Shown: positions 7,653 through 8,762 of the stretch, piece by piece
Layout of the letters: each line of letters begins with the position of its first letter
Numbering within the stretch: position 1 is the first letter of the stretch
DNA from: Isoetes taiwanensis
Lineage: Eukaryota; Streptophyta; Lycopodiopsida; Isoetales; Isoetaceae
Length of the DNA stretch: 64,000 nucleotides
Assembly (NCBI GenBank): GCA_021234155.1
Contig: JAJEKV010000092.1
Coordinates: 3,668,561 to 3,732,560 of the forward strand
Direction: 5' to 3'
Program-made: the position numbers and the translations under genes
Notes under the pieces: model-generated
Told to the model about the DNA's origin: nothing
Databases searched by the model: none
What the model saw: the letters and a program-made list of their open reading frames with translations, nothing else

Positions 7653-8762
7653 ATGGCACGCACCAAACAAACCTACAGGAAGCCTGGACCAAGACCTACC
7701 CTCTCCATGGCGCAGTGTGAGGCGACATGTGAAGAAGATCCCGGAGCACCTCCGACCCAAGAAAGGGGAAGAGGAGCTTCCCCCCAGCAGCAGCAGCGGC
7801 GGCGATACGTATCATGATGCCGAGGAGAGCCCCAGCAGCAGCTCGTCATCGGGAGGCACACAGAGAACAGATGAGTCTCGCCACTTCGGGCCCTCGGACA
7901 CCGAGGTGGAGGAACAGGTTGAAGAACAGGTGGAAGAGCAGCACCACCACCAGACCGACGAAGCGGGCCCTTCAGCGCCCAAAAAGAAGGGGAAGGAAAA
8001 AGTCGCGGAGTGGCCAGAGGAGAGGGCCGCCAGGAAGAAGCGGGAGCGGGAGAGGGAGCTGAGGGAGCAGGAGAGGCGGACCAAGAGGAGGAACGACGGC
8101 CCTCGCCGGACCGTCGTTATAGAAGAGGCCCGGCCGGAGGAGGAGCACCAACAGGAGGGCGACGGAGACGAGGAGGAAGAAGAGCAGGAGGGGGACCCCG
8201 ACGCTAGGCCACCCTACCCTAAGTGGCCGGAACCACCTAAGGTGGTGAAGAAGCAAAAGGTAGGGGAGCGGGCATTCAAGGGCCCAACAGACCATGAAGT
8301 TTAAGCGGAAGATGGTGGCATACATAAGGAGTACCTTCGCCGTTGGACGCAGGTACAATGAGTGGTATTGCCGCCCGGGGAGGTGCAGTAGCTGTCGTGG
8401 AGGGCGGCAGTCAAGAAGAACCAGCCCCAAGCCACCCCCACCGAGGCGGGAAAAACCCAAGAGGGTTCACCACCGGGCGAATAGCACATACAGGGTGTTT
8501 AGGGAGATTCGGCACTTCCGGATGTGCACCATCTCCTGATAAGGAAGGCGCCTTCAGCCGCCTCCTTAGAGAGATTTTGCAGCAGTTCCGGACCGATTAT
8601 AGGGTTACCCCTCTAATGACCCGGGCTCTGCAAGAGGCTTCCGAAGCAGAGCTGGTCCAGCTCTTCGAGGAAGGGAACCTCTGCGCTATCCATGCTAAGA
8701 GAGTTACCCTTATGCCCAAGGATATTCACTTAGCACGAAGGATTCGCAGAGAGAGGCCTTAG
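7653..8762 (+). CDS. histone H3-like leader ORF of the retrotransposon (frameshifted)
   Basis: The ATG at 7653 begins MARTKQTYRKPG, identical to the histone H3 N-terminus through residue 9 except A7 to Y, so K4 and K9 are kept. A long insertion follows (about 7700-8450): Ser-rich, then VEEQVEEQVEEQHHH, then strongly basic and acidic runs. The H3 fold resumes with KPKRVHH and REIRHFRM (alpha-N), LLIRKAP, FSRLLREIL, RALQEASEAELVQLFEEGN, LCAIHAKRVTLMPKDI and ARRIRRERP, ending TAG at 8760-8762. By hand, residues 60-135 of H3 match at about 54 of 76 positions. Loop 1 has canonical H3 length, not the longer CENH3 loop. Four net single-base frame shifts (near 7700, 8300, 8531 and 8552) split the ORF. 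It sits between PBS and gag, so it would be expressed from the LTR. Family identity is firm; function is unknown. Confidence 0.85.

Follow-up and report, generated by a model that had tools for sequence, protein, structure and literature searches.

A histone H3 gene carried by an abundant family of Ty3/gypsy chromoviruses in Isoetes taiwanensis

The question raised by this locus is whether a histone gene can belong to a retrotransposon and, if so, what it would do for its carrier. The stretch of DNA concerned (64,000 nucleotides of Isoetes taiwanensis contig JAJEKV010000092.1, positions 3,668,561 to 3,732,560 of the forward strand; hereafter the window) contains a complete Ty3/gypsy chromovirus around a histone H3-like gene at 7653-8762, with long terminal repeats (LTRs) that begin TG and end CA, target-site duplications (TSDs) of GTTCT, and an integrase with a chromodomain. 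The original prediction had placed an H3 open reading frame (ORF) between the primer-binding site (PBS) and gag of a complete LTR element; the position and the LTRs stood, but 7653-8762 is not one open frame in this copy. Together with its relatives elsewhere in the genome, the locus supports the conclusion that a chromovirus counts a histone H3 gene among its own parts. The reading favored here, with moderate confidence, is that the element makes a nucleosomal H3 variant that would benefit the element itself by hindering host silencing.

The H3 gene and the element that encloses it

The predicted start, MARTKQTYRK, was confirmed at the ATG at 7653, and the 3' end of the gene reads LMPKDIHLARRIRRERP at 8759. 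The piece 8328-8759 scored 79.5 bits against the Pfam Histone family (PF00125, cut-off 26.4) and matched the H3 chains of solved nucleosome structures with E values of about 1e-23, which rules out a chance match and confirms the H3 fold that had been read by eye. Over the 70 residues in frame, identity to a panel of H3 proteins was mostly 67-73% (extremes 52 and 73), in agreement with an earlier hand estimate of about 71%. Copies of the three subfamilies described below, A (that of the window), B and C, gave PF00125 scores of 98.5, 148 and 143.5 bits, respectively.

Counted from R49 to the C-terminus, both host H3 and all 38 element copies measure 87 residues, with no alignment gap, and R49, R63, R69, R72, R83, R116, T118, C110, H113 and D123 are invariant (18/18 A, 16/16 B and 4/4 C copies); R52 is replaced by K in 3 of the 18 A copies. 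The arginines we take to be DNA contacts, and C110, H113 and D123 to be residues of the H3-H3' interface. The fold, DNA-contact arginines and interface are thus like those of canonical or replacement H3, and among solved structures the B protein finds its closest match in a chain deposited as H3.3 (7ux9). The differences from canonical or replacement H3 are the element tails of about 280-370 residues, the substitution of K56 by M in 18/18 A copies, and changes at residues 87-90, presumably the site where chaperones discriminate H3.1 from H3.3. These four residues are S-A-V-L in host gene L006 (with T at 87 in L001), L-M-T-R in A, F-A-I-L in B (F-A-L-L in one copy) and H-A-I-L in C, so that C has H87 and L90. 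A long divergent tail also characterizes CENH3/CENP-A, as does a longer loop 1, but the element fold is exactly as long as that of host H3, and this assignment was ruled out.

An open H3 ORF was present in all ten long copies that were fetched (each as two separate 10-kb stretches), and its end lay at base 4,333-4,360 of the first. In eight of them the gene stands between paired LTRs of about 1.6 kb, with integrase sequence between H3 and the 3' LTR in all eight; a count of copies with both parts in one LTR pair had been proposed at the outset. Perfect 5-bp TSDs flank six of the eight (TTATC, CAATC, CCATT, GTGGC, AAAGT and AACTC); the 3' end was not fixed in the remaining two, L021 and L025. 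LTR identity across the eight pairs was 90-97%. An additional LTR-like repeat lies inside the first stretch of L011, and no LTR pair was detected in L015. The PBS motif TGGTATCAGAGC, presumably of the initiator tRNA-Met type, begins one base after the LTR end in seven of the ten.

A single LTR pair in L013/L014 holds H3 (148 bits), capsid, protease, reverse transcriptase (RT), RNase H, integrase and chromodomain. Capsid, RVP and RVT_1 share one ORF in L013, and RNase H and integrase follow in the next, that is, protease, RT, RNase H and, last, integrase. H2C2 and SH3 are above cut-off in the L013 integrase, and rve is slightly below (29.6 versus 32.6) but passes in the window; the L013 gag has a Ty3_capsid domain, with weak zinc-knuckle matches below cut-off. 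A hAT-type transposon, with a transposase between terminal inverted repeats, was ruled out, LTRs, RT and integrase being found instead. Ordinary H3 genes also occur in this genome, and the element genes might be host H3 variants that merely lie near elements, but the LTR pairs and TSDs enclose the gene, it stands at an almost constant distance from the integrase (10 of 13 pairs, see below), and A, B and C each form one clade apart from host H3. That explanation is contradicted by these data, and we regard its probability as negligible.

The features of the window element are as follows.

5442-5446: left TSD, GTTCT, read from the sequence; the same five bases stand at 29683-29687
5447-7079, plus strand: 5' LTR, TG..CA ends, 94% identical to 28036-29682
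7081-7092, plus strand: PBS, TGGTATCAGAGC, one base past the 5' LTR
7653-8762, plus strand: histone H3-like gene of subfamily A (MARTKQTYRK tip, long acidic/basic tail, alpha-N and fold), frames broken here
8553-8759, plus strand: in-frame stretch of the H3 fold, FSRLLREI...RRIRRERP
9564-10091, plus strand: second accessory ORF (ORF2), between the H3 gene and gag, with a TATA-like TATAAAAA about 115 bases upstream
11527-12370, plus strand: gag remnant, frames broken, ORF pieces by eye (Ty3_capsid/Retrotrans_gag in the related copy L013)
13190-13802, plus strand: 5' part of RT, broken frames, then interrupted, by eye (RVT_1 in L013)
13803-24826, minus strand: another LTR element nested within RT (repeat pair 13803-14369 and 24271-24826, 82%; minus-strand gag-like ORFs by eye)
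24827-25398, plus strand: 3' part of RT and RNase H (RT_RNaseH_2 at 25192-25395)
25631-27172, plus strand: integrase, 514 amino acids open (H2C2, rve, SH3_Tf2 and C-terminal chromodomain, all above Pfam cut-offs)
28036-29682, plus strand: 3' LTR, paired with 5447-7079
29683-29687: right TSD, GTTCT

The LTR pair spans 24.2 kb because the nested element (11 kb) sits inside RT. The MARTKQ start, the acidic/basic middle, the alpha-N part and the fold of the H3 gene stand in different frames. Some of these frame breaks may be sequencing errors, since the assembly is a polished nanopore assembly, according to its description (PMC8566536), and the two LTRs differ by nearly equal numbers of transversions and transitions (52 versus 59). 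The differences between the LTRs concentrate in GC-rich stretches, as if partly assembly errors. Pfam gave no match for the gag piece 11527-11898 or for the tested piece of the 5' part of RT, and Rfam and tRNA searches of the window gave none. Elsewhere in the window, long, largely open ORFs on the minus strand at 30955-36614 resemble, by eye, a long interspersed nuclear element (an endonuclease/RT ORF and a first ORF), and repeats at 44809-56487, 92-98% alike, resemble a tandemly duplicated LTR element.

Copies and subfamilies across the genome

The H3-bearing chromovirus family is very abundant in Isoetes taiwanensis, with thousands of sites. Within the 1,658,258,908 bases (1,110 contigs) searched, sites coding for exactly AIHAKRVT numbered 1,238 + 1,198 = 2,436, against 0 for a reversed-pattern control. 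The host-type continuation KRVTIMPKDIQ was found at 78 sites, some of them B elements, so that at most 78 are of host type, and the subfamily-A motif KRVTLMPKDIH at 463 sites (control 0). The Pfam Histone model gave 8,705 first-look candidates, the best 150 of which were scored and were all above cut-off; among these, 55 lay in stop-free frames of at least 300 amino acids (36 of at least 400) and 5 contained a stop. The five top loci that were read, of eight fetched, were ordinary host H3 genes. The window H3 piece, when used as query, gave 8,093 candidates, and 48 of the best 150, which were scored, lay in stop-free frames of at least 300 amino acids. A one-off insertion of H3 is ruled out by these searches.

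An independent sample was drawn by way of the integrase. The window integrase as query gave 38,585 candidates, of which 84 were scored; besides the window's own, these showed 89-98% identity. For 13 of the 83 matches outside the window, one of the 150 best H3 matches lay 5.3-8.6 kb upstream on the same strand, at 5.3-5.9 kb in 10 of the 13 pairs; other arrangements numbered two. Every sixth integrase row was then taken (13 of 83), and a fixed stretch 5.6-7.3 kb upstream was read. It contained H3 in six of the 13 (L058-L061, L066 and L067); in L060 and L066 the frame is unbroken between MARTKQ and the stop, and L058 lacks the middle. Outside the fixed stretch, L065 has H3 at 8.6 kb and L057 the motif at 3.5 kb (C908:18835812). 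For the other five the stretch fell within pol or a nested element (L062, L063 and L068) or gave no clear reading (L064 and L069).

Three subfamilies were distinguished. A proteins, of about 365 amino acids, have an MARTKQT(A/Y)RK tip and a serine-, acid- and arginine-rich middle, followed by alpha-N and fold. The 18 A copies fetched had been selected mainly because their frames were open, and in 16 of them the frame runs uninterrupted from MARTKQ to its stop. B proteins are of about 440 amino acids, with an MPRFKLT-type start and a C-terminus that is mostly IMPKDLQLARRIRG(D/E)FR (IMPKDIQ occurs in some), and C proteins of about 450, with a METPKQ-type start and IMTKDLQLARRIRGERS. B and C align through tail and fold (42% over 416 residues), whereas A and B align in the fold only (59% over 86 residues). 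Each subfamily formed one clade apart from host H3 in a 99-column tree, with approximate likelihood-ratio support (SH-aLRT) of 99, 96 and 96 for A, B and C. B and C adjoin Isoetes H3, and A stands at a distance with two Adiantum proteins (support 89, subject to a long-branch warning). Since A is distant from B and C in the tree and alike only in the fold, it may represent an older or a separate capture, between which the tree cannot decide.

Other long-tailed H3 proteins were also seen. P0026 and P0033 of Adiantum nelumboides (240 amino acids) have long tails and are 84% alike in the fold, which resembles that of A (50% over 119 residues). Among 98 long H3-fold proteins, 17 share a QYGFSKAL-type tail (P0053, P0057, P0063, P0067, P0069-P0071, P0074, P0077, P0079-P0084, P0090 and P0092) and make up a second long-tailed, multi-copy H3 family that may likewise be carried by elements. 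P0027, P0037, P0028, P0040, P0013 and P0043 formed a loose group in the tree, and P0027 has an ARTKQTARK tip 336 residues ahead of its CAIHA motif. Scans of viral contigs with the window piece, P0037, P0026 and L013 found no relative.

By eye, ORF2 follows H3 in eight of the ten long copies; it is absent from L013, and L025 gave no clear reading. ORF2 seems less fixed than H3, because L013 does without it. Instances were noted at 9564-10091 of the window and in L009, L019, L021 and L023, and pieces from the window and the fetched copies gave no match in Pfam or NCBIfam. A TATA-like box stands upstream of ORF2 in A (the window) and in B copies L011, L017 and L019, and none was seen in C (L023); later ORFs may therefore use another start.

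Selection on the element H3

The ratio of non-synonymous to synonymous substitution rates (dN/dS) was estimated by the Nei-Gojobori method on natural open ORFs. For A, 16 copies were used (the 18 fetched less L054 and L055, whose frames fall short of MARTKQ), giving 120 pairs with a mean dS of 0.36, and dN/dS was 0.037 for the fold, 0.141 for the tail and 0.228 for the 12 codons of the tip. For B (L011, L013, L015, L017, L019, L021 and L038; L009, with a frame lacking a start, was left out) it was 0.040 for the fold and 0.132 for the tail, and the three C copies available have identical fold proteins. For L011, L013, L017 and L021, the four B elements in which a long integrase frame is open, the H3 fold gave 0.038 and the integrase/RNase H region 0.040. 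These values bear out the purifying selection for which a test had been proposed at the outset, and indicate that the fold is under strong purifying selection, as strict as that on the integrase, and that H3 is a selected element gene rather than a passenger. Two contrary outcomes named beforehand, the absence of any other carrier and neutral decay of all copies, were looked for, and neither was found. As a check independent of the fetched copies, the first 100 AIHAKRVT sites listed showed 60 spellings, with all four bases common at fourfold sites (12-45 of 100 each), yet across the genome sites with one mismatch are fewer than exact ones (see below).

Several observations weigh against a functional gene of the kind favored here. 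The copy in the window is dead, with several breaks in the H3 frame and an RT split by the 11-kb element; 47 of the 150 best matches to the window H3 piece contain stops; and three of the six H3 genes from the integrase sample (L059, L061 and L067) are decayed. The choice of copies for dN/dS rested mostly on rank in the H3 search and on an open frame, and this lowers dN; L066, picked by its integrase, has 16-17 non-synonymous changes relative to other copies within 60 codons of the fold, where synonymous sites are saturated. The canonical tip ARTKQTARK is left in only 5 of 16 A copies, and the effects of tail changes on reader proteins are drawn from general background. The dead and broken copies are what would be expected of a functionless H3 retro-pseudogene that hitch-hikes with the element, but such a passenger is contradicted by dN/dS of about 0.04 at dS of 0.3-2, by the 48 of 150 best matches in stop-free frames of at least 300 amino acids, and by the excess of exact AIHAKRVT sites over those with one mismatch (2,436 versus 1,275; allowing one mismatch raised the total to 3,711, with 1 in the control). 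We consider it very improbable. Biased choice of copies was judged unable to explain the low dN/dS, because at a dS of 0.36 tens of non-synonymous differences would be expected between neutral copies. Since the integrase-picked sample holds both open and decayed H3 genes, intact and dead copies are mixed, as expected for a retrotransposon family.

The pattern of constraint also bears on what the protein might do. A histone-fold protein encoded beside gag, and constrained equally with the integrase, might condense the RNA or cDNA of the element inside virus-like particles or pre-integration complexes without being nucleosomal. However, the element already has a gag, whose Ty3_capsid domain is accompanied by weak zinc-knuckle matches (below cut-off), and C110, H113 and D123 are invariant in 38/38 copies, for which reason formation of a tetramer with H4 is predicted; a packaging role appears improbable. 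Alternatively, the protein could act as a decoy or poison, competing for H3 methyltransferases or chaperones and so weakening silencing without sitting on element DNA. The tips of 16 A copies (ARTKQTYRK in 10, ARTKQTARK in 5 and ARTKRTYRK in one) all keep K4 and K9, with A7 changed to Y in 11/16 and S10 replaced in 16/16, all three subfamilies have an altered 87-90 site, and a long low-complexity tail could work in trans, all of which would suit a decoy. On the other hand, no ARTKQT tip is present in the B and C copies that were read, and constraint is strongest on the fold and DNA-contact arginines and weaker on the tail (0.037 versus 0.141), which suggests that DNA or nucleosome binding matters. 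A decoy is accordingly rated unlikely, if less so than packaging.

Proposed function and related systems

The presence, position, copy number, selection and residue pattern of the element H3 are observed, and they are the starting point for the favored reading, a nucleosomal variant that hinders silencing. From sequence we infer its further steps, namely translation, nucleosome entry and an effect on silencing or targeting. Because its ORF is the first long one after the PBS, the element H3 should be favorably positioned to be translated from LTR transcripts. It would then pair with host H4 and enter nucleosomes, as suggested by the retention of the DNA-contact arginines and H3-H3' interface while the 87-90 site and tail were rewritten, and it may be deposited by a route of its own, given the changed chaperone site and tail. 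It would be placed on the element's own DNA, or in chromatin entered by new copies. H3 A7 and S10 matter to HP1 readers, and such chromatin would bear a tail poorly read by host silencers (with the A7, S10 and K56M changes of A, and no ARTKQT tip in B and C), so shielding element chromatin from host silencing; perhaps it would also give a mark usable by the element's own integrase.

Targeting together with the integrase chromodomain is a bolder version of this proposal. A chromodomain at the C-terminus of pol had been predicted and is present in the ORF at 25631-27172, scoring 43.2 bits in the window, 32.9 in L013 and 37.7 in L022 (cut-off 25.1). It had also been supposed to lead the element to H3-methylated chromatin, but this domain aligns best with yeast CHD1 chromodomains, with a lower score for the HP1 type, and recognition of H3K9me should therefore not be presumed. 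By comparison with HP1, two of the three aromatic residues of the methyl-lysine cage are probably lacking as well. In its fullest form the bolder version holds that element-specific nucleosomes, with a tail unreadable to HP1-like silencers, are read by the element's own chromodomain, as a matched mark-and-reader pair that would steer copies to chromatin occupied by the family, the three tails being three private codes; this we think doubtful.

The element resembles plant Ty3/gypsy chromoviruses in its LTRs, PBS, order of gag, protease, RT, RNase H and integrase, and integrase chromodomain, but differs from them in the H3 gene and, usually, ORF2 before gag, and in a chromodomain nearest the CHD1 type. 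The best named matches of the window integrase include Adiantum (51%) and Pinus (PITA, 45%), a similarity of the integrase only. Ogre/Tat elements share an extra ORF between PBS and gag and a very large size, but this ORF1 is not known to encode a histone, nor are these elements known to have a chromodomain. The nearest precedent found is fungal: hAT DNA transposons of Pyrenophora tritici-repentis and Pseudocercospora fijiensis are described as carrying H3-like genes, in 26 very similar copies in the former and 784 copies, inactivated by repeat-induced point mutation (RIP), in the latter (PMC3538342, PMC6710886). Both systems have a mobile element that holds an H3-like ORF and amplifies it, but the present case is a plant LTR retrotransposon, at thousands of sites, with long tails, three diverged subfamilies and purifying selection. 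The original prediction knew of no plant LTR element that encodes H3, and no LTR retrotransposon or plant case with a histone gene was found in the open-licence literature, subscription papers and preprints being outside the search. The word "histone" is absent from the main text of the Isoetes genome paper (PMC8566536), which does report a time course of RNA-seq.

The counts of histone families, and searches for CENH3, in plant genomes rich in transposable elements can be dominated by element genes, as the thousands of element H3 sites against at most 78 host-type motif sites in this one genome illustrate. The family is also a source of natural H3 proteins with very long tails, changed chaperone sites, K56M and known constraint. 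Mobile elements are normally silenced via modifications of histone H3, and a retrotransposon with its own selected H3 reverses the usual roles, the parasite supplying the substrate of the silencing machinery. This makes it testable whether a parasite edits chromatin by histone replacement.
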